From NCBI RefSeq assembly GCF_019084045.1, contig NZ_JAHRED010000002.1:310001-374000 (forward strand): a stretch of DNA of 64,000 nt, given 5' to 3'. The stretch is from Paeniglutamicibacter quisquiliarum (GTDB taxonomy: Bacteria; Actinomycetota; Actinomycetes; Actinomycetales; Micrococcaceae). A model generated the notes under the pieces. The model made no database searches. It saw only the letters and a list, made by a program, of their open reading frames with translations, and was not told where the DNA came from. The position numbers and the translations under genes are program-made. Below are positions 20,471-39,893 of this stretch, one piece after another (the first letter of the stretch is position 1; the number at the start of each line of letters is the position of its first letter).

Positions 20471-20476
20471 AGAGCC

Positions 20477-22761: not shown

Positions 22762-22790
22762 AGTGACATGCGGCGTGGCTAAGTGACAAA

Positions 22791-22852: not shown

Positions 22853-22853
22853 C

Positions 22854-23383: not shown

Positions 23384-23416
23384 GGGGTGGGACCCAAGTA
23401 CGCCTGAAACCTGCCA
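23384..23416 (+). repeat. Tn3-family left terminal inverted repeat (IRL)
   Basis: 33 bases, starting GGGGTGGGACCCAAGTACGC; an exact reverse complement occurs at 39416-39448. Confidence 0.95.
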
Positions 23417-23426
23417 AGCCCGTGGT

Positions 23427-24440
23427 TTATCGGTCGGTGGGGAGGGTGTCGATGGCGTTTTGGCGGTCGGCTTCGGATGGTTTCGTGTAGCGGCGGGTGG
23501 TCTCCAGCCGGGCGTGGCCCATGAGTTCGGCGACGAGCACGACGTCGTGGCCCTCGCGCACGAGGTTGGTGCCGAATGTGTGGCGCAGGATCTGGGTGGT
23601 GAAATCGATGTCGGGGTTATCGGTGAAACCGGCGTCGTTGGCCAGATCCCCGAGGATGTCATCGCATCCCTTGACGCTCAGTCGTTCTCCGCGGTGGTTC
23701 AGGAAGACCGCGGGGTTGTTGGCCGCGCCCGGCCATGAGGGGCGTTCTTCGTTGATCCACAAGGCGAGGTTCTCCCGCAGCACGGGGTGGACGGGGACTT
23801 CCCGGTAGCGGCCGCCCTTGCCGGAACGAACGATCAGCAGGCCCTTGCGGGCCGAGAGGCGCACATCCCCGAGGTCGAGTGCGGTGATCTCGCTGATCCG
23901 CAACCCGGCATAGAACGGGATGTAGCCGATGGCCCGGTTGCGGGGGTGGGTGCAGCGTTCACAGGTGCGCAGCCAGCGTTTCTGGTTGCGTGCGTCCAGG
24001 GCCCTGGGCGCGGTGGAGGGCAGCTCGAGCCGTTTGGCGTTCGGGGCGCCCACGCCGGTGCGGGTGTAGAAGTCGGTCAGGGCCGCCAGGTGCGCGTTGA
24101 TCGTGGCGGGTTTGCGCTTGAGGACTTTCTGAAGGTGGGTGCGCCAGTCCCGGACGGCTCCGTCGCGCGCGGCCGGGTCAAAGAGGGCCGAGCTGTCCAC
24201 GCCGGCGCCATCGAGCCAGGCGAAGAAGGTACGCACCCGTGAGGCGTAGGCGCGGCGGGAATTGTCATCGAGCGGGGCGGACCCCAGAAGCAGGAGGTAT
24301 TCGCCCCAGAGTTGTTCCAGATGCGGGGCCAACACGGCAGGGGCACGTCCCCGTCGGGGCTTTTCGTCTGCCGCCGTTGTGATATCTGAAGTTGCCCGGG
24401 GGTCTTCCCGCCCCGCAGATTTCGCGATATCTGAAGTCAT
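23427..24440 (-). CDS. Tyrosine site-specific recombinase of the transposon (TnpI-like cointegrate resolvase)
   Basis: A 337-residue phage-integrase-family protein. The N-terminal half is a SAM-like DNA-binding domain (LLLGSAPLDDNSRRAYASRVRTFFAW); the C-terminal catalytic domain shows Arg181 in GLRISE, Arg286 in ILRHTFGT, His in MGHARLETTRRY and the nucleophile Tyr318. The first His of the usual HxxR motif is replaced by Gln283. It is divergent from tnpA, and its first codons contain two copies of the repeat that makes up the resolution site. Expected role: resolving cointegrates formed during replicative transposition, by analogy with TnpI of Tn4430. The stop lies 10 bp from IRL. Confidence 0.88.
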   Translation of the reverse strand: MTSDIAKSAGREDPRATSDITTAADEKPRRGRAPAVLAPHLEQLWGEYLLLLGSAPLDDNSRRAYASRVRTFFAWLDGAGVDSSALFDPAARDGAVRDWRTHLQKVLKRKPATINAHLAALTDFYTRTGVGAPNAKRLELPSTAPRALDARNQKRWLRTCERCTHPRNRAIGYIPFYAGLRISEITALDLGDVRLSARKGLLIVRSGKGGRYREVPVHPVLRENLALWINEERPSWPGAANNPAVFLNHRGERLSVKGCDDILGDLANDAGFTDNPDIDFTTQILRHTFGTNLVREGHDVVLVAELMGHARLETTRRYTKPSEADRQNAIDTLPTDR

Positions 24441-24479
24441 TGCAGTATTCTACTTCAGATATTTGTTGTTATCTGAAGT
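24382..24479. promoter_or_regulatory. Putative TnpI-type internal resolution site
   Basis: Four copies of an ATATCTGAAGT-type motif: direct copies at 24382-24392 and 24427-24437, an inverted copy at 24452-24462 and a near copy at 24470-24479. The last two form an inverted pair separated by seven bases, like a core recombination site (IR1-IR2); the first two would be accessory direct repeats (DR1, DR2). This matches the layout known for Tn4430. The two accessory copies lie within codons of the recombinase gene. The site would also cover both divergent promoters, allowing autoregulation. Confidence 0.75.
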
Positions 24480-24536
24480 TGTTTCGGCCTGTGCGCCTCG
24501 CTGGTGCCTCCGGTTCCCTGCGGGAGAGGAAGATTC

Positions 24537-27500
24537 GTGACGTCCGTGGGCAGGACCGCCTATCCGAGATTCACCGCTGCGGTATCGGAGCGGCAGCTGG
24601 CAGAGTCGTTCACCCCGACCGAGGAGGAGAAGGACTGGGCCGGGGAAAAGACACGGGACGAAGCCGGTCGTGCGGTGCTGCTGACGGTGCTGAAGTGCTA
24701 TCAGCGGTTGGGGTATTTCACGCGGGCCGAGGAGGTTCCCGCGGCCGTCACCGGCCATGTTGGAGCGCTGTTGGGTGTGACGATCGACCTTGCCGACGCG
24801 TCCCGGGCAGAGAGGACCTGGTGGCGCTATCGCGATTATGTCCGCGTCCGCATGGGCGTCGTCTACGATGCCAAACGGGTTCGCCGGATGGCTGCCGAGG
24901 CGTTGGAGGCCGCGGTGGTGACCAAGGACCACCCTGCCGACCTGATCAACGTGGCGTTGGAGGAACTGCTCCGTGCCGGCTGCGAGCTGCCCGGGTACTC
25001 GACTCTCGACAGCATGGTCGCCAGGATCCGTGCCCGGTACAACACCGCGCTGTTCGCCGGGGTTCAAGAGCGGATGGCTCCCGGTGACCGGCTGCGGTTG
25101 GAACGATTGCTGTTGGTGGACCCCGTATCGCGGCGCAGCGAGTTCGAGACGCTCAAGGCGCCCGCGGGCTCGGCGATGAAGCTGGGGAAATTCAAGGACC
25201 GCATCGAGCTCCTGCGCCGGCTCGACGCGGTCGGCGAGACCGGCACCTGGCTCGGCGGTGTCTCGGCGCAGCGGATCTCCCATTTCGCCGGGCAGGCCCG
25301 CGCCGTCGATGTCGATGAACTCTCCAGGACCGGGGAGCCCAAGCGGCTGACCCTTATCGCGTGCCTCCTGCATGAGACCCGCATCCGCCTGCGCGACGAG
25401 ACCGTCGAGATGTTCTGCAAACGCATGGCCCTCGTTCACAAAAAGGGACGCGAGCGGCTCGAGGAACTCAAACTCGCCCACCGCGCCGAGTCGGAGTACC
25501 TGCTCGATGTGTTCGGAGAGGTCCTCTCCCTGGCCCATGAGGTGTCCGGGAACGAAGGGAACCCCGAGGAAGGGTTCGACGCGGCCGCGACGGGGCAGAA
25601 ACTCCTGGAAACGCTTCAGGCCGCCGGCGGCCTGAAGCGGCTGACAGCCGCACACGAAGCGGTCTCGGCCCACCACGGACGCAACTATTTGCCGCTGCTG
25701 GAATCGTTCTGCCGGGCTCACCGCTCTGCCCTGTTCGAGCTGTTGGAGGCCCTTGCCCTGGAAGCGACCAGCGCCGATGCCAGCGTGGTGAATGCCGTGA
25801 ACTTCATTCGTGCCTGCCGCAAACGCACCGGCGAATACGTCCCCGAAACCCTCACGGTTGCCGGCGAAGATGGCACCTTGCAGACGCTGGCACTCGATCT
25901 GGACTCCTTCGCCACCGAGGCCTGGAAGAGGGTCATCCGTGACAAGAAGCACCCCGGCAAACTCGCGCGCCGCCACCTGGAGGTCTGCGTGTTCTCATTC
26001 CTCGCCGCGGAACTGCGCTCGGGCGATATCGCCGTGGTCGGCGCCGACTCCTACGCGGGGCTGCACCGGCAGATGATGACCTGGCAGCAGTGCCAGGACC
26101 TCGCCGAGGACTTTTGCTCCCAGACCGGCATCCCCGCAACCGGGAGCGGGCTGGTCGAGCACTTCAAGGCGCAGCTGGCCGACACCGCACGGGCCGCCGA
26201 CGCCGGCTACCCGGCCAACACCGACCTCGTCCTGGAAGGCGACCGGCCCTTGCTCAAACGCCGGAAGGGAGCCGACCGGAGGCCATCGGCCATCGTCCTG
26301 GAAGAAGCCGTTCATGAGCGCCTGAGCGAACGCGGACTTCTGGACATCATTACCGTCAGCGCCCACCGGCTGGGCTGGCACAAGCATTTCGGACCGGCCT
26401 CCGGCGCCGACCCGAAACTACGCGACGCCTTGGGTCGATACTGCCTCACGGTCTTCACCTACGGCACCCTCCTTGGCCCCGCACAGGTCGCCCGCCATAT
26501 GGAAGGCGCCGTCAGCGCCCATGAGCTCTACACCGCGGGGAACAAGCACACCACGGCCGAGAAGATCACTCGTGCCTCGGCCGAGGTCATCAATGCCTTT
26601 GCGCAGCTGGACGTCGCCTCCGTCTGGGGCGATGGGCGCACCGTCGCCGCCGACGGCACCCAGGTCGACACCTGGGAGAACAACCTGCTGGCCGAGTCCC
26701 ATATCCGCTACGGGGGATACGGAGGCATCGCCTACCGCCACGTTTCCGACACCTACATCGCCCTGTTCAGCCACTTCATTCCCTGCGGAGTGTGGGAAGC
26801 GGTCTACATCATCGAAGGACTGCTGCAAAACGACTCCGAGCTGCAACCGGACACGATCCACGCCGACACGCAGGGACAGTCCCTGCCGGTCTTCGGTCTC
26901 GCCGCGCTCCTGGGCTTTGACCTGCTCCCACGTATCCGGGATTGGAAAGACCTCATTCTCTACCGCCCCGACACGGCCACCCGCTACACGCACATCGACT
27001 CGCTGTTCGGTGACACGGCCATCGACTGGGGACTGATCGAGACCCACTGGCCCGACCTGATGCGCACCGTCATTTCCATCCGCGAGGGCTGCCTGTCCTC
27101 GGTCACCCTTTTGCGCAGGCTGGGCAACCACTCCCGCAAGAACCGCCTCTACCGGGCCTTCCGCGAACTCGGGCGCGTCGTGCGCACCATCACGCTGCTG
27201 CGCTACCTATCCGACCCCGAACTGCGCGAACACATCACCGCGATCACCAACCGGGTCGAATCGTTCCATAAATTCAGCGACTGGCTGGCCTTCGGGAACG
27301 AAATGATCGGCCACAACGACCCCGAACACCAGGAAAAGATCATCAAGTTCAACGAGCTGCTGGCCAACATCGTCATCTACTCCACCGCCTGCGACATCAC
27401 CGCCGCCGCCAACGAGCTCGCAGCCGAAGGCCACACCATCGACACCGAAGACCTGGCCACGATCTCCCCCTACATCACCAGGACCATCCGCCGCTTCGGA

Positions 27501-27605
27501 GACTACGTCCTCAACCTCGCCCCGCCGGACCAAGACCCGCAAACGAAACTGGACCTGCAACCAGGGGCACTATTCCCACCCACCAGTATCAGACCCCGAA
27601 TCTAG
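24537..27605 (+). CDS. tnpA: Tn3-family transposase
   Basis: A DDE transposase of about 1022 residues that makes cointegrates. The N-terminus is a DUF4158-type DNA-binding region (TSVGRTAYPRF). Catalytic Asp residues lie in AADGTQVDTWENN (~704) and IHADTQGQS (~775), with the Glu in the PEHQEKIIKFNELLAN stretch (~930). A GTG at 24504 is in frame, but GTG 24537 has GGAGAGGA just upstream and gives the expected TSVGRTAYP start. Length is normal (950-1020), and no frameshift is seen, so it may be active. Confidence 0.95.
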   Translation: MTSVGRTAYPRFTAAVSERQLAESFTPTEEEKDWAGEKTRDEAGRAVLLTVLKCYQRLGYFTRAEEVPAAVTGHVGALLGVTIDLADASRAERTWWRYRDYVRVRMGVVYDAKRVRRMAAEALEAAVVTKDHPADLINVALEELLRAGCELPGYSTLDSMVARIRARYNTALFAGVQERMAPGDRLRLERLLLVDPVSRRSEFETLKAPAGSAMKLGKFKDRIELLRRLDAVGETGTWLGGVSAQRISHFAGQARAVDVDELSRTGEPKRLTLIACLLHETRIRLRDETVEMFCKRMALVHKKGRERLEELKLAHRAESEYLLDVFGEVLSLAHEVSGNEGNPEEGFDAAATGQKLLETLQAAGGLKRLTAAHEAVSAHHGRNYLPLLESFCRAHRSALFELLEALALEATSADASVVNAVNFIRACRKRTGEYVPETLTVAGEDGTLQTLALDLDSFATEAWKRVIRDKKHPGKLARRHLEVCVFSFLAAELRSGDIAVVGADSYAGLHRQMMTWQQCQDLAEDFCSQTGIPATGSGLVEHFKAQLADTARAADAGYPANTDLVLEGDRPLLKRRKGADRRPSAIVLEEAVHERLSERGLLDIITVSAHRLGWHKHFGPASGADPKLRDALGRYCLTVFTYGTLLGPAQVARHMEGAVSAHELYTAGNKHTTAEKITRASAEVINAFAQLDVASVWGDGRTVAADGTQVDTWENNLLAESHIRYGGYGGIAYRHVSDTYIALFSHFIPCGVWEAVYIIEGLLQNDSELQPDTIHADTQGQSLPVFGLAALLGFDLLPRIRDWKDLILYRPDTATRYTHIDSLFGDTAIDWGLIETHWPDLMRTVISIREGCLSSVTLLRRLGNHSRKNRLYRAFRELGRVVRTITLLRYLSDPELREHITAITNRVESFHKFSDWLAFGNEMIGHNDPEHQEKIIKFNELLANIVIYSTACDITAAANELAAEGHTIDTEDLATISPYITRTIRRFGDYVLNLAPPDQDPQTKLDLQPGALFPPTSIRPRI

Positions 27606-27664
27606 AACCATGCATTCCCCGCCGTGGAGCGTGGCAGGTTTCAGGCGTACTTGGATCCCGTCCC
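27582..27664 (+). repeat. Internal degenerate copy of the transposon right end
   Basis: 83 bases nearly identical to 39366-39448, starting ACCAGTATCAGACCC and including the terminal repeat (27632-27664). The terminal repeat has three mismatches in its outermost ten bases, including the positions next to the cleavage end. It overlaps the last codons of tnpA. It probably marks the right end of the ancestral, cargo-free transposon of about 4.3 kb (23384-27664). Confidence 0.88.
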
Positions 27665-27700
27665 TGGTACGGCCGACGCCATGCTGGGAGGTAAGCGGGG

Positions 27701-28219
27701 TCAGTTCAGGAAACGGCTCGACGCTCGGTAGAAGATCGCGTTGAAGCTGTGGTCCAGGTCGATGTCGCGGACGTTGAGCCGCAGGGCGCTGTACAGTCCA
27801 CGCTCCTTGTTGATCAGCATGTTGGCCATCAGCCAGTACACCTCGTCCCAAGCCGCTGCTACTTCGGCAGTAACGGCATCGCCGAGCACATCCACGATCG
27901 CCCACATCAGGTTGTCGTGCACCACCTGGTATTGATCCGGGTGCAGGCCCAGGGACGCATGCTTATGGGCAATCCTGGACAGCAGATGCTCCGGAAGGTG
28001 CGTGGGGTCATTGACGAGAAAGCCAGCGAAGGCCGCAATAGACCCGGCCAGGGCCTGCTGCTGGCGCCCGTCGGCCTGGTTTCCCCGGTTGAACAGCCCG
28101 TCCAGCAGCTCCGGATGCCCTTCAAACATGTGGTCGTAAAACCGGGATGCTATCTCCTGAATATGCTCGCCCACTACCGGAAGGGTCGCCCTGATAACGG
28201 GCAAGGAACTATCAGACAA
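27701..28219 (-). CDS. Globin-domain protein, flavohemoglobin-like but without reductase domain
   Basis: A 172-residue protein aligning with the globin part of flavohemoglobin Hmp. Haem-pocket residues are present: Tyr28 (B10) in RFYDHMF, Gln53 (E7), proximal His87 in HKHASLG, and Tyr97. After the H helix (NKERGLYSAL) there is an unrelated 25-residue tail and a stop instead of the FAD/NAD domain. TTG 28219 is chosen, because GGAGG lies ten bases before it. Likely role: binding or oxidising NO generated during nitrate/nitrite reduction, needing an external reductase. It is divergent from narG and ends 37 bp from the internal right-end repeat, so truncation by the transposon is possible. Confidence 0.82.
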   Translation of the reverse strand: MSDSSLPVIRATLPVVGEHIQEIASRFYDHMFEGHPELLDGLFNRGNQADGRQQQALAGSIAAFAGFLVNDPTHLPEHLLSRIAHKHASLGLHPDQYQVVHDNLMWAIVDVLGDAVTAEVAAAWDEVYWLMANMLINKERGLYSALRLNVRDIDLDHSFNAIFYRASSRFLN

Positions 28220-28677
28220 CGTATTCTGGCCTCCTCCGGCACATGCTTCATCGCGCTTAGGTGAAGCCCGACTTCGCACTAACACCACCGCGTCGAACCG
28301 CACAGACCTCGAAAGCAGGGAGCCTTGCTACTCGGTGACGCCCGGTCAGGACCAATCCCTCCAGATCCCCAGCCGCCGGTTCTGGCTGGCACGACAGGCC
28401 ACGCGACCCGTCGTTTAGCGTCTGAGTCCGCGGACAGGAAGAAACAGGGCATTCTGCAGCGGGCCGGCACCACCCGCTGCAACTGTCAGCTCCTGACATA
28501 ATCTGCACCACCACGGGCTGGGAAAGAGGATGCCTTTCAGCCATTGCTGATATGCGGACATGATGGCGCAGCGGAGCCGCGAATCGAGCAGCCCGCATCT
28601 AAAATGATTGGGCCGCGTTTTGATCATTAGTCCGGAAACTGTAGCGGTTTGCGCCTTGCTGCCCCTAGGGTGGCAGC
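28220..28677. promoter_or_regulatory. Divergent control region between globin gene and narG, with a 15-bp palindrome
   Basis: 458 bp without a convincing gene. It contains TGTCAG-CTC-CTGACA at 28484-28498, a perfect palindrome that could be an operator. TAGGGT at 28666-28671 stands six bases before the narG ATG and suggests a leaderless narG mRNA. I found no clear FNR box (TTGAT-n4-ATCAA). Confidence 0.5.
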
Positions 28678-31600
28678 ATGGCTGAGGATCGGTTTGTCCC
28701 GGGGCTCGACGGAGCAGCCTCGGATGCGATGTTGAAGCTGGGCCGTTTCTTCACGAAATGGGACCAGACGGAGGACGGCAGGGCGGTATTCAGGGAGGGC
28801 GGCCGTAAAGGCGACATCTTCTACCGCGACCGCTGGAGCCACGACAAGGTGGTCCGCTCCACCCATGGGGTGAACTGCACCGGCTCCTGCTCGTGGAAGG
28901 TGTATGTCAAGGACGGCATCATCACTTGGGAATCCCAGCAGACCGACTACCCGTCGGTGGGCCCGGACAGCCCGGAATACGAGCCGCGGGGGTGCCCCCG
29001 CGGGGCGGCCTTTTCCTGGTACACCTACTCACCCACCCGCGTCCGCTTTCCGTACGCCCGCGGTGTCCTGGTGGAGATGTACCGGGAGGCGAAGTCCCGG
29101 CTCGGCGATCCGGTGCTGGCCTTCGCGGACGTCGCCGGAGACCCGGAGCGGCGGCGCCGCTACCAGCAGGCCCGCGGCAAGGGCGGCCTGGTGAGGGTGT
29201 CCTGGCAGGAGGCGATCGAGCTCGCTGCTGCCGCGCACGTGAACACCATCAAGACCTACGGGCCGGACCGGTGCGCCGGCTTTTCGCCGATCCCGGCGAT
29301 GTCAATGGTTTCGCACGCGGTGGGCACCCGCTTCATCCAGCTAATCGGCGGCGTCATGACCTCCTTCTACGACTGGTACGCGGACCTTCCGGTCGCCAGC
29401 CCCCAGGTGTTTGGGGACCAGACGGATGTGCCGGAATCCGGGGACTGGTGGGACGCGCGCTACCTGATGATGTGGGGCTCCAATGTTCCCGTCACCCGGA
29501 CCCCGGACGCGCACTGGATGGCCGAAGTGCGGTACCGCGGCACCAAAGTGGTCACGGTCAGCCCGGACTACGCGGACAACACCAAGTTCGCCGATGAATG
29601 GCTTCCCGCCCAGGCCGGCACCGACGCCGCCCTCGCGATGGCCATGGGCCATGTCATGCTCAAGGAGTTCTTCGTTGACCGGGACGTGCCGTTCTTCTCC
29701 GACTACGTGCGCCAGTACACCGACCTTCCGTTCCTCGTCAGGCTGGAAAAGCGCGACGACGGCGCGCTGACGCCGGCGAAATTCCTCACCGCCAAGGACA
29801 TCCGGGCCGAGGCCGGGGCTGAGGACGCGGCGTTCCGCACCGTCCTGTTCGACAAAAAGGCAGGCCGTCCCGCCGTCCCTAACGGCTCGATGGGCTTCCG
29901 CTATTCGGACAGCGGCGAGGGAAAATGGAACCTGGACCTGGAAGGGATCGAACCCGCACTGTCCTTACGTGAAGTCTCCGGTGAAAGCGCCGAGATCCTG
30001 CTGCCCTGCTTCGAACAGGCGGACGGCGCCGGCAGCGTGCTACGGCGCGGGGTGCCCGTCATCGAAGTCGAGGGCCAGCTGGTCACCACCGTGTTCGACC
30101 TCATGCTCGCCCAGTACGGGGTGGGCCGCGACGGGCTGCCGGGAGAGTGGGCCGCAGGCTACGACGACGCGAACACGCCCTACACGCCCGCCTGGCAGGA
30201 GGAAATCACCAGTGTTCCGGCGCAGGCGTGCATCCGCGTGGCACAGGAATTCGCCCGAAACGCCGAAGAATCCAAGGGCCGTTCCATGATCATCATGGGT
30301 GCCGGGATCTGCCAGTGGTTCCACGGCGATACCACCTACCGCGCCGTGCTGGCGCTGGTGATGCTGACCGGCTGCATGGGCCGCAACGGCGGCGGCTGGG
30401 CGCACTACGTGGGGCAGGAAAAGACCCGCCCGGCCACCGGCTGGGTGTCCCTCGCGAACGCCCTGGACTGGTCCCGGCCGCCGCGGACCATGATCGGCAC
30501 CGGTTACTGGTACATGCACACGGACCAGTGGCGGCAGGACGGATACTCCGCGGACGCGCTGAAGTCCCCGCTCTCCACCGGAGCCCTGGACGGGATGCAC
30601 ACCGCGGACGCAATGGCCCAGTCCGCGAGGCTCGGCTGGATGCCGTTCTACCCGCAGTTCGACCGGAACCCGCTGGACCTCGCGGACGAGGCGGAGGCCG
30701 CCGTCGCCGCCGGTTCCGCGAAGGACACACCCAGCTACATCGCGGACGCGCTCAAGAACCGCACCCTGAACCCGGCGATCGAGGACGTGGATGCCCCGGA
30801 GAACTGGCCCCGGACCCTGGTGCTGTGGCGCTCCAACCTGTTCGGTTCCTCGGCCAAGGGCAACGAGTACTTCCTGCGGAACCTGCTGGGCACCCATAAC
30901 AATGTCTTGGGCAAGGACCACGCCGAGGGGCTCAAGCCCACCAACGTGAAGTGGCATGAGCAGGCCCCGGAAGGAAAACTGGACCTGCTGGTCTCCGCGG
31001 ACTTCCGGATGACCTCCACCACGCTGCTGTCCGACGTCGTGTTTCCCGCTGCCACCTGGTACGAGAAGCACGACCTCTCCTCCACAGACATGCACCCGTT
31101 TGTGCACGCCTTCAGCCCGGCGATCGACCCGCCGTGGGAGACCAAGACCGACTTTGACACCTTCCACCTGCTGGCCCGGGAGTTCTCCCGGATGGCCAAG
31201 ACCCACCTGGGTGTGCGCCGGGACCTGGTCAGCGTGCCGCTGCAGCACGACACTCCCGGCCAGCTCGCCCAGCCCGGCGGGATCGTGCGGGACTGGCTGG
31301 AGACGGACATCCCCGCCGTGCCGGGGCAGAACATGCCCATTTTTTCGGTGGTGGAGCGGGACTACACGGCCATCGCGGACAAGCTTGCCGCCGTCGGGCC
31401 GCTGGCCGATAATCTGGGCTTCACGGTCAAGAACGTCACCTACAAACTCCAGGGCCCGTTGGAGAGGCTCAGCCGGTCCAACGGGGTGATGCTCGGCGGG
31501 GCCGCGGACGGCCGACCGGCGATCGACACCGACGCGAAAATGGCCGAGGCCATCCTGGCGTTCTCCGGCACCACCAACGGTGCCCTGTCTGTGCAGGGCT

Positions 31601-32391
31601 TCAAGGACCTGGAGATCCGCACCGGCCGGAAACTGGCGGACCTGTCCGGGGGCTCGGAGGAAAAATTCATCACCTTCGCCCAGACGCAGGCCGGCCCGGT
31701 CCCGGTGATCACCTCGCCGGAATGGTCCGGGTCCGAGACAGGCGGCCGCCGCTACGCCCCGTTCACCATCAACGTCGAAAGGCTCAAGCCCTGGCACACC
31801 CTGACCGGGCGGATGCACTTCTTCCTCGACCACGACTGGATGATCGACATCGGCGAGGCCCTGCCGATCTACCGGCCGCCCCTGGACATGCACCGGCTGT
31901 TCGGGGAACCCAAACTTGGCGCGAACGGGGAGCTTGAGGTGGTGGTCCGCTACCTGACACCGCACTCCAAGTGGTCCATCCACTCCGAATACCAGGACAA
32001 CCTGCTGATGCTCTCGCTCTCCCGCGGCGGGCCCACGGTCTGGATGAGTCCTGCCGACGCGGACTCCATCCAGGTCAGGGACAACGAGTGGGTGGAGTGC
32101 CTGAACATCAACGGCGTCCTGGTGGCGCGGGCGATCGTCAGCCACAGGATGCCACCCGGGGTGGTGTACGTCCACCACGCGCAGGAGCGCACCATCGACG
32201 TGCCGAAGTCCGAGGCCACGGGACGGCGCGGCGGCATCCACAACTCAGTGACCCGGCTGCTGGTCAAGCCCTCGCACCTGATCGGCGGCTACGCCCAGCT
32301 GGCCTACGCGTTCAACTACCTTGGCCCAACCGGAAACCAGCGCGACATGGTTGCCACCGTCCGCCGTCGTTCCCAGGAGGTGCAGTACTGA
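28678..32391 (+). CDS. narG: Respiratory nitrate reductase, alpha (molybdenum) subunit
   Basis: A 1237-residue Mo-bisMGD catalytic subunit reducing nitrate to nitrite on the cytoplasmic face. The FS0 cluster ligands are His63, Cys67, Cys71 and Cys106 (HGVNCTGSC, RGCPRG), the His-Cys3 pattern of NarG. The Mo ligand Asp is near residue 232 in FYDWYADLPVASPQ, matching Asp222 of E. coli NarG, which separates it from NapA. No Tat signal is seen. Full length, no frameshift. It is the first gene of narGHJI; its stop overlaps the narH ATG by one base. Confidence 0.97.
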   Translation: MAEDRFVPGLDGAASDAMLKLGRFFTKWDQTEDGRAVFREGGRKGDIFYRDRWSHDKVVRSTHGVNCTGSCSWKVYVKDGIITWESQQTDYPSVGPDSPEYEPRGCPRGAAFSWYTYSPTRVRFPYARGVLVEMYREAKSRLGDPVLAFADVAGDPERRRRYQQARGKGGLVRVSWQEAIELAAAAHVNTIKTYGPDRCAGFSPIPAMSMVSHAVGTRFIQLIGGVMTSFYDWYADLPVASPQVFGDQTDVPESGDWWDARYLMMWGSNVPVTRTPDAHWMAEVRYRGTKVVTVSPDYADNTKFADEWLPAQAGTDAALAMAMGHVMLKEFFVDRDVPFFSDYVRQYTDLPFLVRLEKRDDGALTPAKFLTAKDIRAEAGAEDAAFRTVLFDKKAGRPAVPNGSMGFRYSDSGEGKWNLDLEGIEPALSLREVSGESAEILLPCFEQADGAGSVLRRGVPVIEVEGQLVTTVFDLMLAQYGVGRDGLPGEWAAGYDDANTPYTPAWQEEITSVPAQACIRVAQEFARNAEESKGRSMIIMGAGICQWFHGDTTYRAVLALVMLTGCMGRNGGGWAHYVGQEKTRPATGWVSLANALDWSRPPRTMIGTGYWYMHTDQWRQDGYSADALKSPLSTGALDGMHTADAMAQSARLGWMPFYPQFDRNPLDLADEAEAAVAAGSAKDTPSYIADALKNRTLNPAIEDVDAPENWPRTLVLWRSNLFGSSAKGNEYFLRNLLGTHNNVLGKDHAEGLKPTNVKWHEQAPEGKLDLLVSADFRMTSTTLLSDVVFPAATWYEKHDLSSTDMHPFVHAFSPAIDPPWETKTDFDTFHLLAREFSRMAKTHLGVRRDLVSVPLQHDTPGQLAQPGGIVRDWLETDIPAVPGQNMPIFSVVERDYTAIADKLAAVGPLADNLGFTVKNVTYKLQGPLERLSRSNGVMLGGAADGRPAIDTDAKMAEAILAFSGTTNGALSVQGFKDLEIRTGRKLADLSGGSEEKFITFAQTQAGPVPVITSPEWSGSETGGRRYAPFTINVERLKPWHTLTGRMHFFLDHDWMIDIGEALPIYRPPLDMHRLFGEPKLGANGELEVVVRYLTPHSKWSIHSEYQDNLLMLSLSRGGPTVWMSPADADSIQVRDNEWVECLNINGVLVARAIVSHRMPPGVVYVHHAQERTIDVPKSEATGRRGGIHNSVTRLLVKPSHLIGGYAQLAYAFNYLGPTGNQRDMVATVRRRSQEVQY

Positions 32392-34088
32392 TGCGTGTCA
32401 TGGCTCAAATGGGCATGGTCATGAACCTGGACAAATGCATTGGCTGCCACACCTGTTCGGTGACCTGCAAGCAGGCCTGGACCAACCGTGCCGGCACCGA
32501 ATACGTCTGGTTCAACAACGTCGAAACCCGCCCCGGGCAGGGGTACCCCCGCCGGTACGAGGACCAGGAAAAGTGGCTTGGCGGCTGGGAGCTTAACAAG
32601 CGCGGCAAGCTGGTCCTGAAGGCCGGCGGCCGGGTCAAGAAGCTCCTCGGGATCTTCGCCAGCCCGGTCCAGCCCGAGCTCAAGGACTACTACGAGCCGT
32701 GGACCTACGACTACAAGACGCTCATCGATGCGCCCCTGGGGGATGACTTCCCGGTGGCCCGGCCCAAGTCCCTGATCACGGGCAAGGACACCAAGATCAC
32801 CTGGTCCGCGAACTGGGACGATGACCTGGGCGGTTCCACCGAGCACGGCCATTTGGACCCGATCGTGGAGAAGGTCCGGCGGGAATCCGAGGACAAGATC
32901 AAGTTCGCCTACGAGCAGGCGTTCATGTTCTACCTGCCGCGGATCTGCGAGCACTGCCTGAACCCCTCCTGCATGGCATCCTGCCCTTCCGGCGCGATCT
33001 ACAAGCGGGTGGAGGACGGGATTGTCCTGGTGGACCAGGACAAATGCCGAGGCTGGCGGCAGTGCGTTACCGGCTGCCCGTACAAAAAAATCTACTTCAA
33101 CCACAAGACGGGCAAAGCCGAAAAGTGCACCTTCTGCTACCCCCGCGTGGAGGTGGGGCTCCCCACGGTCTGCTCCGAGACCTGCGTGGGCAGGCTGCGG
33201 TATCTGGGGCTGTTCCTGTACGACGCCGACGCCGTCACCGCGGCCGCGTCCGTCACGGACCCCCAGGAGCTCTACGACGCCCAGATGGACGTGCTGCTGG
33301 ACCCCAACGACCCCGCCGTCCAGGCCGAGGCCCGGGCCCAGGGCATCCCGGAGGACTGGATCGACGCCGCCCGGCGGTCCCCGGTCTACGCCCTCGCCAA
33401 GGTCTACAAGGTGGCCCTGCCGCTGCACCCCGAATACCGGACCATGCCCATGGTCTGGTACGTCCCGCCGCTGTCCCCGGTAGTGGACCTGCTGCGGGAC
33501 CAGGGGCACGACGGCGAGGATCACGGCAACCTCTTTGGCGCCATCGACGCGCTGCGCATCCCGGTGGAATACCTCGCGGAACTCTTCACGGCCGGGGACA
33601 CCGACCGGGTCACGACTGTCCTGAGGAAGCTTGCGGCCATGCGCTCCTATATGCGCGGCATCAGTCTGGGCAACGATCCCGACGACTCCATCCCCGAAGC
33701 CGTGGGCATGGACGGGCAGACCATGTACGAGATGTACCGCCTCATGGCCATCGCCAAATATGACGAACGCTACGTCATCCCGAAGGCACACGTGGAACAG
33801 GCGCATGACCTGGAAGAGATGGGCTGTTCGCTGGATTTCGACGGCGGACCGGGCATGCAGGACTCGTCCCCGTTCGGTGAGGCCAGCGGCAGGCCCGTCC
33901 CGGTGGCGGTGGAAACGTTCCATGCCCTCCGGGACCGGCAGACCACGGACGAGATGGGGTCCGGGTCCGGCCTCAGCGGCCGGGTCAACCTACTGAACTG
34001 GGACGGGCGCGGGGCGCCGCCCGGGCTCTTCCCGGGACGCTCAAGCGCTTCCACAGACAGTGCCTCGGCGGGCGGGGAACAGCCGTGA
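32391..34088 (+). CDS. narH: Respiratory nitrate reductase, beta (iron-sulfur) subunit
   Basis: A 565-residue electron-transfer subunit with four cysteine groups: CIGCHTCSVTCKQAW, CEHCLNPSCMASCP, CRGWRQCVTGCPYKK and KCTFCYPR...CSETC. The Trp in CRGW replaces a Cys, giving the [3Fe-4S] cluster as in E. coli NarH. The frame is open upstream inside narG, but ATG 32391 (TGATG overlap, AGGAGGTG upstream) is the right start. It carries electrons from NarI haems to NarG. The C-terminal ~60 residues form a variable tail. Confidence 0.97.
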   Translation: MRVMAQMGMVMNLDKCIGCHTCSVTCKQAWTNRAGTEYVWFNNVETRPGQGYPRRYEDQEKWLGGWELNKRGKLVLKAGGRVKKLLGIFASPVQPELKDYYEPWTYDYKTLIDAPLGDDFPVARPKSLITGKDTKITWSANWDDDLGGSTEHGHLDPIVEKVRRESEDKIKFAYEQAFMFYLPRICEHCLNPSCMASCPSGAIYKRVEDGIVLVDQDKCRGWRQCVTGCPYKKIYFNHKTGKAEKCTFCYPRVEVGLPTVCSETCVGRLRYLGLFLYDADAVTAAASVTDPQELYDAQMDVLLDPNDPAVQAEARAQGIPEDWIDAARRSPVYALAKVYKVALPLHPEYRTMPMVWYVPPLSPVVDLLRDQGHDGEDHGNLFGAIDALRIPVEYLAELFTAGDTDRVTTVLRKLAAMRSYMRGISLGNDPDDSIPEAVGMDGQTMYEMYRLMAIAKYDERYVIPKAHVEQAHDLEEMGCSLDFDGGPGMQDSSPFGEASGRPVPVAVETFHALRDRQTTDEMGSGSGLSGRVNLLNWDGRGAPPGLFPGRSSASTDSASAGGEQP

Positions 34089-34705
34089 GCCGGCGCGATC
34101 AGGTGGTCTACATGGCCGCCGCCTGGTGCCTGTCGTACCCGGATGCGGATCTGATTCTCAAGGTCCCGCTGATGCGGGCCGCACTGGCTGAGTTTTCCGG
34201 TGCGGTCCAGGACTTCGACGGCGTCCTGGACCTGTTCGAATCCTCGGAGCGATTGGAAATCCAGGCCCATTACGTGCGCGAGTTCGATCTCGGCAAGCGG
34301 CATGCCCTGCACCTGAGCTACTGGACGGACGGCGACACCCGGCGCCGCGGTGAAGTCCTAGGCAACTTCAAGAAGGCCTACCGGCAAAGCGACATCCTGG
34401 TGGACACCCACGGCGAACTGCCGGACTACCTGCCCATGGTCCTGGAATACGCCGCGCGGGTGGATCTTGCGGCGGGCCGTGACTTGCTGATCCGGTACCG
34501 GGCCAGCCTCGAGATGCTCCGCTTCGGCCTGCTACGCGATGAGTTGCCGCATGCCCGCATCCTCCAGGCCATCTGCGCCACGCTGCCCGGGAAATCGCCG
34601 GCCGATGAGCAGGCTGTCATGCGGATGGCCGGCTACGGGCCGCCCACCGAAGCCGTGGGGCTGGACCCGTACGATCCTCGCCTGCTGCCCGTGAAAGGGG
34701 TTTGA
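34085..34705 (+). CDS. narJ: Nitrate reductase molybdenum cofactor assembly chaperone
   Basis: A 206-residue NarJ/TorD-type chaperone needed for Mo-cofactor insertion into NarG and not part of the final enzyme. The typical start (AAAWCLSYPDADL) and the ...HYVREFDLGKRHALHLSYW core are visible. The GTG start overlaps the narH stop (GTGA). Confidence 0.94.
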   Translation: MSRRDQVVYMAAAWCLSYPDADLILKVPLMRAALAEFSGAVQDFDGVLDLFESSERLEIQAHYVREFDLGKRHALHLSYWTDGDTRRRGEVLGNFKKAYRQSDILVDTHGELPDYLPMVLEYAARVDLAAGRDLLIRYRASLEMLRFGLLRDELPHARILQAICATLPGKSPADEQAVMRMAGYGPPTEAVGLDPYDPRLLPVKGV

Positions 34706-34707
34706 CC

Positions 34708-35541
34708 ATGCTGACCTTCGAAACCAGGCCGGGAGCAGCCGTCGAACTCACCGCCCTGGACATCGTCCTTTGGGGCGTCCTGCCCTACGTCATGGTGGTG
34801 GTGCTGGTGGGCGGCAGCATTTGGCGCTACAAGTACGACCAGTTCGGCTGGACCACCAGGTCCTCCCAGCTGTATGAGTCCCGGCTCCTGCGGATCGCCT
34901 CGCCGCTGTTCCACTTCGGTTTGCTGGCGGTCATCGCAGGCCACTTTTTTGGCCTGGTCATCCCGATGGCATGGACGCAGGCCGTGGGCATGAGCCAGGA
35001 GTTCTACCATTTCAACGCCCTGCTGGTGGGAGGCATCGCGGGGGTGGGAACCCTGGGCGGAATTCTGCTGCTGATTTATCGCCGCCGCACCACCGGACCG
35101 GTCTTCATGGCTACCACCAAAAACGACAAATTCATGTACGTGGTCCTCACCGCCGCCATCTTATTCGGCCTCTGGACCACCCTGGCCAGCGTTTTCGAGG
35201 GCGAACACGGGCACAACTACCGCGAAACCGTGGCCCCGTGGTTCCGCTCACTTTTCATCTTCCAACCTGACCTCGCCGCCATGGCAGCTGCACCGTTCTC
35301 CTTCCACCTGCACACCCTGGTGGGCATGGCGCTCTTTATGATCTGGCCTTTCACCCGGCTGGTCCATGCCTTTACCGCGCCGCTGCATTACCTGTTCCGT
35401 CCATACATTGTCTACCGCTCGCGTGACCGCATTCGCCCGGGCGGAAAGGCCGGCGGCGACGGGTCAAGGAACGCGACCCCGCCCGCCCGGCGCGGCTGGT
35501 CCGCCGTCGGAACCAGGGACCGGGATACCCGGAACCAGTGA
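34708..35541 (+). CDS. narI: Respiratory nitrate reductase, gamma (cytochrome b) subunit
   Basis: A 277-residue membrane subunit with five hydrophobic segments that oxidises quinol and anchors NarGH. Haem-ligand histidines are in SPLFHFGLLAVIAGHFFGL and in HLHTLVGMALFMIWPFTRLVH. ATG 34708 is preferred over the in-frame TTG at 34702, as GAAAGGGG precedes it; the gap to narJ is two bases. The C-terminal ~35 residues are polar and Arg-rich. Confidence 0.95.
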   Translation: MLTFETRPGAAVELTALDIVLWGVLPYVMVVVLVGGSIWRYKYDQFGWTTRSSQLYESRLLRIASPLFHFGLLAVIAGHFFGLVIPMAWTQAVGMSQEFYHFNALLVGGIAGVGTLGGILLLIYRRRTTGPVFMATTKNDKFMYVVLTAAILFGLWTTLASVFEGEHGHNYRETVAPWFRSLFIFQPDLAAMAAAPFSFHLHTLVGMALFMIWPFTRLVHAFTAPLHYLFRPYIVYRSRDRIRPGGKAGGDGSRNATPPARRGWSAVGTRDRDTRNQ

Positions 35542-35556
35542 ACAGAGGAGCTCACA

Positions 35557-36810
35557 GTGACCGGGTCCGCTCAATCTACTGAGTCCGCCCGCACCGGCAA
35601 AGGGCTGCAGCTGGCATTGGCCACCAGCGCCTCGGTGATGGCCTTCTGGGCCTGGAACATCGTGGCGCCGCTCGGCGCCCGGTACACCCAGGAAATGGGG
35701 CTGACCCCCACGGCAACTGCCGTTCTGGTCGCCATGCCGATTTTTGTGGGATCGCTTGGCCGGATCGTGGTGGGAGCCATGGCGGACCGTTTCGGCGGCC
35801 GCGTCATGTTCACGTTCGTACTGCTGGGCAGTGTTCCCCCCGTCCTGCTGGTCGCCCTTGGCGGCACGCTCGGCTCGTACGCGGTGGTGCTGGGAGCAGG
35901 CCTGCTGCTGGGCATCGCCGGCACCGTGTTCGCCGTCGGAATTCCCTTTGTCAGTGCTTGGTATGAGCCCGCCCGGCGTGGTTTCGCCACCGGTGTTTTT
36001 GGGGCCGGCATGGGCGGAACCGCACTCGCTGCCTTCCTCACTCCGCGCCTGGTAAGCGCGATGGGTTACCTGGCAACGCATCTCCTGATCGCCGGGCTCC
36101 TTGTCGCCATGGCCGCCCTGGTCTGGTACAACGTCAAAGAGGCGCCCGGGTGGCAGCGGAACACCTCCCCGGTGGTTCCCAAGCTGAAGGAAGCGGCAGG
36201 CCTCGCGGTCACCTGGAAGCTGTGTTTCCTCTACGCCATCGTTTTCGGCGGATTCGTTTCCTTTGCTACGTACCTGCCCACCTACCTCCGGGACGTCTAC
36301 GACTTTGATCCCACAGCAGCAGGCACGCGGACCGCGGGTTTTGCCGTGGCGGCCGTCATTTTCCGACCTATCGGCGGCGTGCTGGCGGACGGGATTGGTT
36401 CCAAACCGGTGGTTCTTGCGTCGCTGGCTGGCATTGCCGTCCTGGCCTACATCGTGAACCTTCGGCCCGACGGCGAGATCCCGGCCGGACTGACGTTTGT
36501 GGCGATGGCGTCAGCGCTCGGCCTTGGCGCCGGGGGTGTGTTCGCATGGGTGGGCAGGCTGTCCCCGCCGGGCAAGGTGGGCAGCATCAGCGGGATCGTC
36601 AGCGCCGCCGGTGGCATGGGCGGTTACTTCCCTCCACTGGTCATGGGCGCCACCTACAACGCGGCGGACAACAGCTACTTCATCGGGCTCATGCTGCTCG
36701 TGGTGACGGCTGTGGCAGCGTTCGTCTTCACACTTGCTGTCGTCCGCCTGCCCGCCGCGGTTGAAGCTCCCGGGCATGCGGACGAGGGTTACGGCCGTCC
36801 GGACAGCTAG
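35557..36810 (+). CDS. narK: Nitrate/nitrite transporter, MFS NNP family
   Basis: A 417-residue MFS protein with about 12 hydrophobic segments. NNP-family features include the loop GAMADRFGGRVMF and the glycine-rich signature regions GIAGTVFAVGIPFVS and GAGGVFAWVGRLSPPGKVGSISG. It imports nitrate and/or exchanges nitrite for NarG. GTG start with GAGGAG upstream, 15 bases after narI, so it is the fifth gene of the operon. Confidence 0.94.
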   Translation: MTGSAQSTESARTGKGLQLALATSASVMAFWAWNIVAPLGARYTQEMGLTPTATAVLVAMPIFVGSLGRIVVGAMADRFGGRVMFTFVLLGSVPPVLLVALGGTLGSYAVVLGAGLLLGIAGTVFAVGIPFVSAWYEPARRGFATGVFGAGMGGTALAAFLTPRLVSAMGYLATHLLIAGLLVAMAALVWYNVKEAPGWQRNTSPVVPKLKEAAGLAVTWKLCFLYAIVFGGFVSFATYLPTYLRDVYDFDPTAAGTRTAGFAVAAVIFRPIGGVLADGIGSKPVVLASLAGIAVLAYIVNLRPDGEIPAGLTFVAMASALGLGAGGVFAWVGRLSPPGKVGSISGIVSAAGGMGGYFPPLVMGATYNAADNSYFIGLMLLVVTAVAAFVFTLAVVRLPAAVEAPGHADEGYGRPDS

Positions 36811-36988
36811 CCTGATGCCGGGCACGGACCACCACGGTCAGGGACGACCAGTCAGGGGCAATCTGCGGGTATACGCTCCTACTCGGAGCGGCGTCCGCCA
36901 TCATCCGTTGATCAACCAACGGGAGTATTTTAGAACGGATCGTGGGTTGTCCTTTACATTGCTCTACGAACGGCAGAAGGATGTAACC

Positions 36989-37414
36989 ATGATGTTCTCT
37001 CATGATGACCCGATCCTTGTCCTTGACGATGAGCAGTGCTGGAAGCTGTTGGAGAACACCCAGCATGGGCGCTTGGTGCTGACCGCCGCCGGTGAAACGG
37101 ACGTCTTTCCCATCAACTACCGCGCTCACGACGGCCTCCTGCTGCTGCGTACGGCACCTGGCACCAAGCTTGCCGAGCTGACCATCAATGAGAACGTGGT
37201 GTTCCAGGCAGATGGCATCACCTCTGACGAAGCTTGGAGCGTCGTAGTCAAGGGACGCGCCCGGGTCCTTGAGCAGGGTTCGGACATTGCCGCAGCCGAG
37301 GCGCTGAATCTCAAGACATGGATCCCCACGCTCAAGGACTTCTACGTGGAAATCAAACCGTCGCGTGTCAGCGGGCGGCACTTCAACCTGGGTGAGCAGC
37401 CAGAACGCTTCTGA
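36989..37414 (+). CDS. Pyridoxamine 5'-phosphate oxidase family (flavin-binding) protein
   Basis: A 141-residue split-barrel protein resembling the Pyridox_ox_2 group: CWKLLENTQHGRLVLTAAGE, FPINYRAHDGLLLLRTAPGTKL and a central SVVVKGRARVLE strand. Such proteins bind FMN, F420 or haem and are often stress-induced in actinobacteria, sometimes with hypoxia regulons. Two in-frame ATGs (36989, 36992) follow an AGAAGG site. It is 178 bp from narK, so it may have its own promoter. The reaction is unknown. Confidence 0.85.
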   Translation: MMFSHDDPILVLDDEQCWKLLENTQHGRLVLTAAGETDVFPINYRAHDGLLLLRTAPGTKLAELTINENVVFQADGITSDEAWSVVVKGRARVLEQGSDIAAAEALNLKTWIPTLKDFYVEIKPSRVSGRHFNLGEQPERF

Positions 37415-38157
37415 CCCGGCCCGAGTCCGTGTTCTAGGGTGCTGGCCGGCTCTCTGAGGATGCTCTCCAGCTTCACCGCGACGTCCGTCCCGGCGCATTC
37501 AGATAGATTCCGTGGTGATCCCCCTTTTGGGGGCAGAACCGGCGCTGTGATGGGAGCGGCACCAAAGCGCGAGCTTTCGCGCACCGGGGCACTTCATCAG
37601 GGACGCAGGGTGGGTTGGGACCTCGGGAGTGCTTCAATCATTTCGACGGGTGTCTGTGGCCGCTTGGAGGTGTGGCTTTGAGACGACCTGGCAGTTTGCC
37701 TGTCAGCTGCACCGTTGACATCGGGCGGCAGTTTCTCGACAGGGACGGGGACAAGCTTAAGGCCGCGCTAAACGGTTTTCCGCTGGCCGTAGAAGCTCAG
37801 GATCGCCGCCCAGGCGTGAACCCCCACTGAAGGCGCCAAGCACCCAGCAATTGGGTTAGGCAACCCTAGGTCCCTGCCCGCACCAAATGAGCTGATGCCG
37901 CTGACGGGCAGTAAGCATCGCCACGAGACAGCTTCGTCCGGCGGACACCATTGCCCTCAACCAGACGGAATTAACCAGGCGATCAGCCAACCATATCCAT
38001 CCTGGCGGGGCCAGTGGCAGTTGATGCAACCAATCTAGAGCAGTTCTTCGTCCGAGATGGTTGGAGTGTCCGGCCGGATACACTGTTATTTTCCGGCTCG
38101 GATCGACGGGACTGTGGGCCTCGTCACGCATGCGGGACGCCGCTTAAGCTGGGTGCC
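37415..38157. other. Gene-poor 0.74-kb stretch within the transposon cargo
   Basis: No frame here has a convincing start, codon pattern or recognisable family. Short frames exist on both strands, but their translations look random. A small palindrome CCCCCTTTTGGGGG lies near 37518. TAAGCT at 38145-38150, seven bases before ATG 38158, may be the -10 box of the next gene. Confidence 0.5.
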
Positions 38158-39306
38158 ATGACCATGCCCGATCACTCCCCGAGTTCCTTCGGTTCGCGCG
38201 TCGCCGAGGCAGTGCAGACCCTCACCCCGGGATATTTCGCTCTCACTATGGCCAGCGGGATCATTTCGGTGGGGCTTGAGCTCGAAGGCTTCCACGCGCT
38301 GTCCGCTGCACTCCTCGTGATCTGCGCGGTCTCTTACACAGTGATCCTCGTGCTTAGCCTGGTGCGTCTGGTCAAGTTCCGCGAGGATATGCGGCGCGAC
38401 TTCATGGATCCCGCCCGGGCGTTCGGCTTCTTCACTTTCATCGCCGGGACGAATGTGCTCGGTGTGCGGCTCGGAATGATGGGGTGGCCGGGGGCGACGG
38501 CGCTGCTCCTCGTTGTCGCGGTGCTTGCCTGGGTGGTGCTCGGCTACGTCGTACCGTGGACGGCTGTGCTCGGCCGGGACGAAAGGCCCGTGGTCAAGGA
38601 TGCTAACGGCACATGGTTCATTTGGTGCGTGGCGAGCCAGTCCGTGGCGGTCGCGGCGGCGTCCGTTGAGCCTCTCGCCGGGCCAGACTGGCGCGCGGCC
38701 TTGGCGCTGGTCGCCGTCGTGGCCTGGTCCGTGGGGCTGATTCTGTATGCCGCTGTGGGGATCTTCGTCTCGTTGCGGCTCATGACCTACCCCATCAGGC
38801 CGGAGGACCTCCGCCCGCAGTACTTTGTGGCCATGGGTGCCATGGCGATCAGCGTCCTGGCAGGCGCGCGGATTGTCGAGATGGCGGGTGCGCCCATGGT
38901 GGACGCAACCCTCGGGCTCGTGGCCGGTTCGTCCGTGGTGTTCTGGGCCTTCGCCTCGTGGCTCATTCCCGTGCTCCTCGCGGCCGGGTGGTGGAGGCAC
39001 GTGACCCATCGCGTGCCGCTGACCTTCGAGCCCGGGCTCTGGAGCGTCGTCTTTCCCCTCGGTATGTACGCCGTGGCGGGAATTTACCTGGGGCGTGCGG
39101 ACCGACTGCCGATTGTCGCTTTTGTCGGCCGTGCAGAGTTGTGGGTGGCCGTCGCAGCGTTCCTCGCGACCTTCGCCGGAATGCTCTGGCACCTGTGGGC
39201 CGCGCTGGTGCGCCCCGGCATGCGCCCCCGTGCGCTGGGTCCGGGTGCCGGGATGCCAGACCGTCGGGAACCCGGAACGTCGGGACGCCAGACGGAGGGA
39301 CACTGA
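38158..39306 (+). CDS. TDT-family (TehA/SLAC1-like) membrane transporter or anion channel
   Basis: A 382-residue protein with about ten hydrophobic segments. It opens with TLTPGYFALTMASGIISVG, the typical first helix of the TDT/TehA/SLAC1 family. The longer frame upstream is not hydrophobic, so ATG 38158 is chosen (TAAGCT seven bases before). Known relatives export tellurite or dicarboxylates, or conduct anions including nitrate and chloride. Location in a nitrate-respiration transposon makes nitrate or nitrite a plausible substrate, but this is inference. The stop is 59 bp from the terminal repeat region. Confidence 0.85.
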   Translation: MTMPDHSPSSFGSRVAEAVQTLTPGYFALTMASGIISVGLELEGFHALSAALLVICAVSYTVILVLSLVRLVKFREDMRRDFMDPARAFGFFTFIAGTNVLGVRLGMMGWPGATALLLVVAVLAWVVLGYVVPWTAVLGRDERPVVKDANGTWFIWCVASQSVAVAAASVEPLAGPDWRAALALVAVVAWSVGLILYAAVGIFVSLRLMTYPIRPEDLRPQYFVAMGAMAISVLAGARIVEMAGAPMVDATLGLVAGSSVVFWAFASWLIPVLLAAGWWRHVTHRVPLTFEPGLWSVVFPLGMYAVAGIYLGRADRLPIVAFVGRAELWVAVAAFLATFAGMLWHLWAALVRPGMRPRALGPGAGMPDRREPGTSGRQTEGH

Positions 39307-39365
39307 CCGGCCGCAGCAGGGACCGGTCCACCGCATGAATACAGACCGCTTGAATAACGGTCGCT

Positions 39366-39448
39366 ACCAGTATCAGACCCTGAATCTAGAACCATGCATT
39401 CCTCGCCATGGAGCGTGGCAGGTTTCAGGCGTACTTGGGTCCCACCCC
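39366..39448 (+). repeat. Transposon right end (83-bp copy including IRR)
   Basis: The intact right end; 39416-39448 is the exact complement of the left terminal repeat. The preceding 50 bases match 27582-27631 with few changes, showing the end was once attached to a second tnpA 3' end. Confidence 0.92.
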
Positions 39449-39453
39449 GGCTA
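39449..39453. repeat. Right 5-bp target duplication GGCTA
   Basis: Identical to 23379-23383. Confidence 0.92.
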
Positions 39454-39883: not shown

Positions 39884-39887
39884 TACA
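39869..39887 (-). repeat. IS481 right terminal inverted repeat
   Basis: Reverse complement reads TGTATTAACCACGGAGGTT, matching the left end at 18 of 19 positions. Confidence 0.88.
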
Positions 39888-39893
39888 CCTAGG
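39888..39893. repeat. Right target duplication CCTAGG of the IS481 element
   Basis: Identical to 22737-22742. Read on the minus strand it contains the TAG stop codon of the propeller gene that follows. Confidence 0.85.

Follow-up and report, generated by a model that had tools for sequence, protein, structure and literature searches.

A putative Tn1721-like transposon of the Tn3 family carries narGHJI in Paeniglutamicibacter quisquiliarum

We analysed a window of 64,000 nucleotides from the genome of Paeniglutamicibacter quisquiliarum (4.44 Mb in 35 contigs), which forms part of a 655-kb contig. A unit of the Tn3 family, hereafter the nar element, occupies positions 23384–39448 of this window (16,065 bp). 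Profile scans recovered within it these genes of a first-pass annotation: tnpA, a tyrosine recombinase, narGHJI, a NarK-like transporter of the major facilitator superfamily (MFS), a PPOX gene and a TDT gene. By inverted-repeat comparison, the unit is bounded by terminal inverted repeats of 36 bp at 23384–23419 (+ strand) and 39413–39448 (− strand). Both ends start with GGGGTGGGACCC and they are complementary at 35 of the 36 bp; the sole mismatch is at base 34, so the first 33 bp are perfect, as had been claimed. Under a simple random model the chance expectation for such a pair in the window is about 7e-10. Directly outside the repeats, the 5-bp sequence GGCTA is present at 23379–23383 and again at 39449–39453, which bears out the target duplication noted earlier. 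Elements of the Tn3 family are defined by inverted repeats of about 38 bp that begin with GGGG, and they duplicate 5 bp of their target; the nar element agrees with this definition with its 36 bp, and GGCTA fits the duplication. When the whole genome was searched with the 22-bp core of the ends, allowing at most one mismatch, exactly three places were found, all inside the nar element, and the reversed pattern used as a control was found at none.

The nar element is itself inserted in another mobile element. An element of the IS481 family extends from 22736 to 39894 (+ strand) and is split by the transposon; without the transposon and one GGCTA it measures 1089 bp, with 26-bp ends (96%). Excising the unit and one GGCTA in silico gives an unbroken frame for an IS481 transposase of 334 aa across the junction, and the two halves match the IS481 zipper/helix-turn-helix (HTH) and rve domains. 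A second, partial IS481-family copy was found elsewhere in the genome (G000:C5:48099-48590; 92% over 492 bp). We also compared the insertion site with that of relatives, in a genus sample of 15 genomes, the own one included. The region was fetched from six of the 14 others (G005, G007, G008, G010, G012 and G013), and in all six the block of IS481 element and transposon is missing between the flanks. G012 and G013 are the closest relatives by flank identity (93%), and in them the flank alignments resume nearby, 86 bp apart in G013; in the other four, the right flank aligns only from about 42.5–43 kb of the window and the empty site is less exactly placed. Two nested empty sites, one in the IS481 frame and one in the relatives, thus confirm the insertion of the unit. 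They support the view that a Tn3-family element transposed here into a site left unoccupied in all six fetched relatives. An assembly artefact, which the first-pass annotation had considered as a possible source of the end repeats, is ruled out by the agreement of the ends, the duplication, the restored IS frame and the empty sites in other genomes.

The genes of the nitrate reductase are arranged in order on the + strand: narG for the alpha subunit (28678–32391; TIGR01580), narH for the beta subunit (32391–34088; TIGR01660; its start is inferred, the open frame being longer), narJ for the assembly chaperone (34085–34705; TIGR00684) and narI for the gamma subunit, a cytochrome b (34702–35541; TIGR00351). 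Each of the four scored above the cut-off of its curated model, and by this measure narGHJI is predicted to be complete; structures of the E. coli enzyme could be aligned to the greater part of NarG, NarH and NarI. A narK-type MFS transporter gene follows at 35557–36810 (+ strand) and is 85–88% identical to the gene found after narI in four clusters of g10, another genus of the same family. No narXL was recognised in the unit, and no cofactor gene was found among the open reading frames (ORFs) scanned there; nor was any transfer gene, although short ORFs were not all scanned.

For comparison, nine nar loci of g10 were fetched in windows of 18–19 kb, four of them on contigs longer than 4 Mb. 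Between about 28660, shortly upstream of narG, and 36745, close to the 3' end of narK, the DNA is 82–87% identical to the g10 clusters; at one locus (L093) the narK part is only 74% identical. Upstream of narG, where a promoter of the donor could have been carried along, homology to 11 clusters fades within about 20 bp, and the clusters also differ among themselves there. The narJ–narK part was matched (E <= 1e-100) in 52 of 150 g10 genomes. In a family sample of 395 genomes, 211 were scored for the nar cargo and 93 of these matched it (E <= 1e-200); the remaining 184 were unscored, and a closer donor of nar may exist among them. The ratios of non-synonymous to synonymous substitution (dN/dS) indicate purifying selection on the nar genes; by itself this is no proof that they are used in the present host. 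Measured against G406 (L115), they were 0.06 for narG, 0.09 for narH, 0.14 for narJ, 0.10 for narI and 0.09 for narK, and over four comparisons the five genes ranged from 0.06 to 0.37, narI in one of them covering just 155 codons.

In the own genome there is one narG, the one on the transposon; a frame of 722 aa gave the sole further match (E 2.9e-7). Full-length narG was found in 10 of the 15 genus genomes, including the own one. G010, G012, G013 and G014 gave only weak partial matches, as for other molybdoenzymes, so that the two nearest relatives by flank identity, G012 and G013, have no narG. G004 has only narG fragments (L048), some of them with stops, perhaps a decayed molybdoenzyme locus. 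Since the own genome has no other narG, it is the transposon that supplied narGHJI, by a first gain or after an earlier loss. The host has moaA and nirB, both scoring above cut-off, so the cofactor and onward reduction of nitrite are available in principle. It had been proposed at first that an aerobe was turned into a nitrate respirer in one step. A genome with no other narG, next to two nearest relatives with none, agrees with this proposal; the picture of a simply aerobic genus does not survive the presence of narG in two thirds of its sampled genomes.

This distribution bears on a different account of the locus, in which nar entered the chromosome otherwise, by vertical inheritance or homologous recombination, and only afterwards acquired transposon ends on both sides where it stood. 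A narG that is common in the genus and a nar block that resembles the clusters of a related genus would both suit such a history. It is hard to reconcile with the position of the block, which interrupts an IS481 frame, is flanked by a 5-bp duplication and is absent from this site in all six relatives fetched. Moreover, the nar genes of the relatives examined are at other loci than this one, so that the finding named at first as grounds for refutation was not made: five genus genomes have a nar–TDT cluster at one locus beside a gene read as truB. In the own genome, 18 positions separate the two flanks of this locus, and nar is absent there. We regard later addition of the ends as very improbable.

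The transposase gene tnpA (24504–27605, + strand) encodes a Tn3-family DDE transposase of 1033 aa. It scored 623.3 bits with NF033527 (cut-off 500), and PF01526 covers 389 of 389 positions. The protein can be aligned to TnpA of Tn4430 (E about 6e-48) with D, D and E residues in register, which we take to have the roles of the catalytic triad of a DDE transposase. A perfect palindrome of 28 bp is located within the gene at 25612–25639. Divergent from tnpA, a tnpI-like gene for a tyrosine recombinase of 337 aa (23427–24440, − strand) gave Phage_integrase and XerC-like matches; its start is uncertain and the frame overlaps irs motifs. These motifs belong to an irs-like candidate resolution site at 24383–24479, consisting of four copies of TATCTGAAGT, two in direct orientation followed by two inverted to each other across an 8-bp spacer. 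They lie around the start of the recombinase frame and before tnpA, between the two divergent genes. The four copies are identical over 10 bp; 0.02 are expected in the window, and none of 100 shuffles reached four.

In the species-representative collection, one pattern-based scan detected 13 relatives of tnpA, 53–77% identical, all in Actinomycetes and mostly in genera of the Pseudonocardiaceae. At E <= 1e-100, tnpA was found in one of the 395 family genomes, the own one, and among the 15 genus genomes no other Tn3-type transposase exceeds 29% identity over stretches of more than 300 residues, while one shorter stretch reaches 33%. The first-listed plasmid match of the recombinase (44–45%) is encoded on a plasmid of Alicyclobacillus, where its gene directly precedes one for a DUF4158/Tn3-type transposase. 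Three sister elements were examined with Pfam. In two of them (L031 and L035) a serine resolvase is found downstream of tnpA, in L031 between the two ends; in L035, ends like those of the nar element were not identified. Four ORFs of the third (L026) were scanned and showed no resolvase. With a crude motif search, the resolvase of L035 was recovered and that of L031, which Pfam had found, was missed; another was flagged in L036. The simple reading of these few elements is that a resolution module was swapped, with TnpI in place of a serine resolvase, which would make the chassis of the nar element a mixed one.

Directly after the tnpA stop (27605), a third and decayed end was found at 27629–27664 (− strand). 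It shares 33 of 36 bp with the outer right end, and two of its three differences are within the first five bases, where the tip is GGGAC in place of GGGGT. It forms the right end of a basic unit of 4.28 kb (23384–27664), made up of left end, recombinase, tnpA and right end; what follows is an extension that holds the cargo and closes with a second right end. The outer right-end module (39366–39448, + strand) repeats 27582–27664, that is the last 24 bp of tnpA and the stretch to the end (83 bp), and the repeated segment as a whole (90 bp; 39366–39455 against 27582–27671) is 91% identical. In its anatomy the unit is three-ended and, as far as sequence can tell, Tn1721-like, with a third end after tnpA and a fragment of tnpA repeated at the second right end. 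The small intact unit proposed at first therefore holds as a Tn3-family unit with matched outer ends, but not as a simple two-ended one. Given the GGGAC tip, it is doubtful that the basic unit could move by itself.

Solo right ends of the same transposon family were detected in a genus genome (G004, L099) and on the conjugative plasmid of Paenarthrobacter sp. AT5 (L064), and a further end-like match was found in one more genome (G364). On the plasmid, a remnant of about 130 bp (L064 14995-15128) joins the first bases of the left end, as judged by eye, to the tail of tnpA and the right end, and no matching 5-bp duplication was seen at it. The occurrence of solo ends in related bacteria indicates that the transposon family has moved among them. 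The ends also allow another origin of the unit, in which two related transposons inserted on either side of nar and the right one was reduced to its last 83 bp; nar would then have been bracketed, and not captured by a single element. An outer right end that carries the tail of tnpA is in keeping with this, and when four ends were compared, the tip of the outer right end matched the AT5 plasmid remnant and not the inner end, so that the two right ends may stem from two sub-lineages. On the other side, there is no second left end in the unit, which has three ends in all, and only one tnpA match of such kind. We consider this pseudo-compound origin, which is compatible with the final anatomy, to be a real possibility with somewhat less than an even chance.

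The extension begins with a broken gene. The frame at 27701–28303 (− strand) is a truncated hmp with the globin domain only. A flavohaemoprotein frame in G002 has 405 residues, and the truncated product aligns with residues 1–158 of it; this similarity spans 28234–27761 and ends 97 bp from the inner right end, and no match to the reductase part of the flavohaemoprotein was found in the window. An hmp gene thus seems to have been severed at the left edge of the cargo, where the similarity ends (27761). A native single-domain globin is disfavoured, as the frame of the closest homologue among those examined (L060, 78%) has 405 residues. Two plasmid homologues of the globin with listed lengths have 400 and 397 aa, and the best 20 of 339 plasmid records all end their match at or before residue 181 of 200. 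It is clear that the statement that all reading frames look intact has to be withdrawn for this gene, as well as for the recombinase, which is without one canonical histidine.

Beyond narK, the unit contains a gene for a pyridoxamine-phosphate-oxidase-like (PPOX) protein at 36989–37414 and a gene for a TDT/SLAC1-family transporter at 38158–39306 (open frame from 38014), both on the + strand with inferred starts and no internal stop. The approximately 750 bp between them (37415–38160) have no assigned gene; neither this stretch nor 27660–27780 had a match in plasmids. For hmp, PPOX and TDT, no tblastn match above 45 bits was obtained in the nine g10 nar loci. Their arrival together with nar from the donor is thus unsupported, and since they do not accompany nar in g10 the cargo is probably composite. 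Some observations run counter to a separate origin: PPOX matches were found near nar in two g24 loci (L095 and L096), and in the own genus the 65%-type nar has TDT homologues (39–43%) nearby, at L060 together with hmp.

Taken together, we consider it highly probable that the locus holds a Tn1721-like replicative transposon of the Tn3 family with a nar extension, inserted in an IS481 element of a lineage with no other narG. We propose that a basic tnpI–irs–tnpA unit gained a nar-bearing extension closed by a second right end with a tail of tnpA, and that capture of the cargo severed an hmp gene at the left edge. TnpA would work on the outermost ends and produce a cointegrate with 5-bp duplications, which TnpI would resolve by recombination at the irs-like site; with the inner right end decayed, the nar cargo would normally move with the unit. 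The element would then have jumped into an IS481 copy near qcrCAB–ctaE. The lineage would in this way have acquired a membrane nitrate reductase and a NarK-type carrier, with the host providing the molybdenum cofactor and nitrite reductase, and nitrate-dependent growth might follow. While the anatomy, the insertion, the single copy in the genome, the lack of another narG and the selection on the nar genes are observed, we infer the activities of transposition and resolution, the order of capture and growth on nitrate.

Several points weigh against this reading. HxLRH is the canonical catalytic motif of tyrosine recombinases, and the recombinase has Q at its first H, where the Alicyclobacillus homologue has H; the remaining motifs are present, as judged by eye. 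Resolution may therefore be weak. The MFS gene scored 162.5 bits with TIGR00886, well below the cut-off of 311.7. Between the two right-end segments the divergence is about 9%, so the capture was not a recent exact duplication, and capture of the cargo through a second copy of the transposon is suggested by the end sequences only. The search for the ends in other genomes that had been recommended gave the solo right ends described above, but no second copy or other site of the unit was found in the 395 family genomes. In the plasmid collection no copy of the unit was found as near DNA, and a megablast search with the whole unit returned 21 records, none of which covered more than 80% of the query. 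As no other copy was found, movement together with the cargo is drawn from one insertion.

Another reading is that the unit is a dead relic, which jumped once and no longer moves or resolves, so that the nar genes now behave like chromosomal ones. The single copy in the genome, the change from H to Q in the recombinase, the decayed inner end and the truncated gene at the edge of the cargo are consistent with this. However, the outer ends agree over their first 33 bp, tnpA is of full length with D, D and E aligned, and the four irs motifs have remained identical over 10 bp. A relic, which as a history is compatible with the Tn1721-like transposon proposed above, seems rather unlikely to us.

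This transposon has near counterparts among known systems. The recombinase of Tn1721 is a serine resolvase, and Tn4430, Tn5401 and TnBth4 are elements of Bacillus; the nar element has a TnpI-like recombinase and an actinobacterial host. It also carries narGHJI–narK where Tn1721 carries tet, its inner end is decayed, and all that its outer right end keeps of tnpA is 24 bp, followed by the sequence up to the end. Tn1721/Tn1722 is described as a basic transposon with two ends and an extension that holds the cargo together with part of a tnpA gene and a further right end (PMC5756416). A basic unit with an extension closed by a second right end with a tail of tnpA is what the nar element shares with it (PMC5756416, in part). 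In Tn4430, irs has the four motifs IR1, IR2, DR1 and DR2 and is located upstream of tnpI, which is collinear with tnpA, and a survey found TnpI in only three of 190 elements (PMC7157771, in part). Like Tn4430, Tn5401 and TnBth4, the nar element has a tyrosine recombinase and an irs-like site of four motifs, but its tnpI and tnpA are divergent with the site between them, and not collinear as in Tn4430 (PMC7157771, same parts).

Nitrate respiration has been found on other mobile elements. The accessible portions of one report describe a type I-F3 CRISPR-associated transposon (CAST) of Shewanella sp. C32 that carries narGHJI, narX, narL and narK, in a group whose CASTs hold up to 89 cargo genes (PMC12452197). 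The nar element resembles it as a transposon with a complete narGHJI and narK, and differs as a 16-kb Tn3-family unit that is not CRISPR-associated. Strains of Thermus exchange a nitrate respiration conjugative element (NCE), which has its own regulators and whose insertion is associated with an IS copy (PMC6352166, in the parts available). There, too, strains passed nitrate respiration on as a module; the NCE is conjugative, whereas the nar element has no transfer gene among the ORFs scanned. A plasmid of Rhodococcus qingshengii RL1 (NZ_CP042915.1, L120) has narGHJI, an FdhF/YdeP-type oxidoreductase and TDT at 4720–21578 between two inverted copies of IS1415 (IS21 family). This block is possibly a second mobile form of the nar module; it is 76% identical to the nar element in DNA over narGH, and outside nar it has no DNA match to the transposon. 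On another Rhodococcus plasmid, nar occurs without the IS1415 bracket. In the open-licence literature we found no report of a Tn3-family or composite transposon with nar, and the portions of PMC2864759 that were available describe no Tn3-family transposon with nar. The earlier view that a nar module on a Tn3-family unit is unusual agrees with this; for transposons at large, narGHJI has a precedent in the Shewanella CAST (PMC12452197, in part).

What we see is a known architecture and a known enzyme in an unusual combination, on a mixed chassis. That this is the first Tn3-family transposon with a complete dissimilatory nitrate reductase, on a chassis mixing TnpI with a serine-resolvase lineage, and that one insertion gave the narGHJI genotype to a lineage whose nearest relatives are nar-less, is a compound claim that we make tentatively, at close to even odds. 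If it is true, nitrate respiration in this family would be an accessory trait swapped by transposons in the manner of resistance genes. Respiratory nitrate reductase is patchy in the genus and in the family sample, and here one defined insertion parts nar-less from nar-bearing genomes. The patchiness becomes a testable case: the transposon is small and well bounded, its insertion shows in two nested empty sites, and both nar-bearing and nar-less relatives are at hand. The Tn1721 manner of holding cargo would work for a multi-subunit respiratory enzyme as well, and a resolution module that looks TnpI-like is found outside the elements of Bacillus.

The insertion region has as neighbours the genes for an M20 peptidase, ctaD, cytochrome b, a Rieske protein, cytochrome c and COX3. 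The last four, on the − strand at 16183–20539, are read as qcrB, qcrA, qcrC and ctaE. Gene order around the insertion is common to the relatives, where in G007 and G013 it is on contigs of more than 4.5 Mb, and as both the neighbour genes and their order are shared, the place of insertion is chromosomal. The IS481-family element begins about 2 kb beyond ctaE, and we regard the nearness of the insertion to this gene as a coincidence. A second Tn3-family transposase, of 1008 aa, is encoded at 56166–59192 and is 24% identical to that of the nar element; no inverted repeats of at least 26 bp were found around it in 52000–61000. Between 43000 and 47000 the G+C content rises to as much as 77%, and two long frames scanned there had no Pfam match; this part of the window aligns to G012 and G013 at about 83%.

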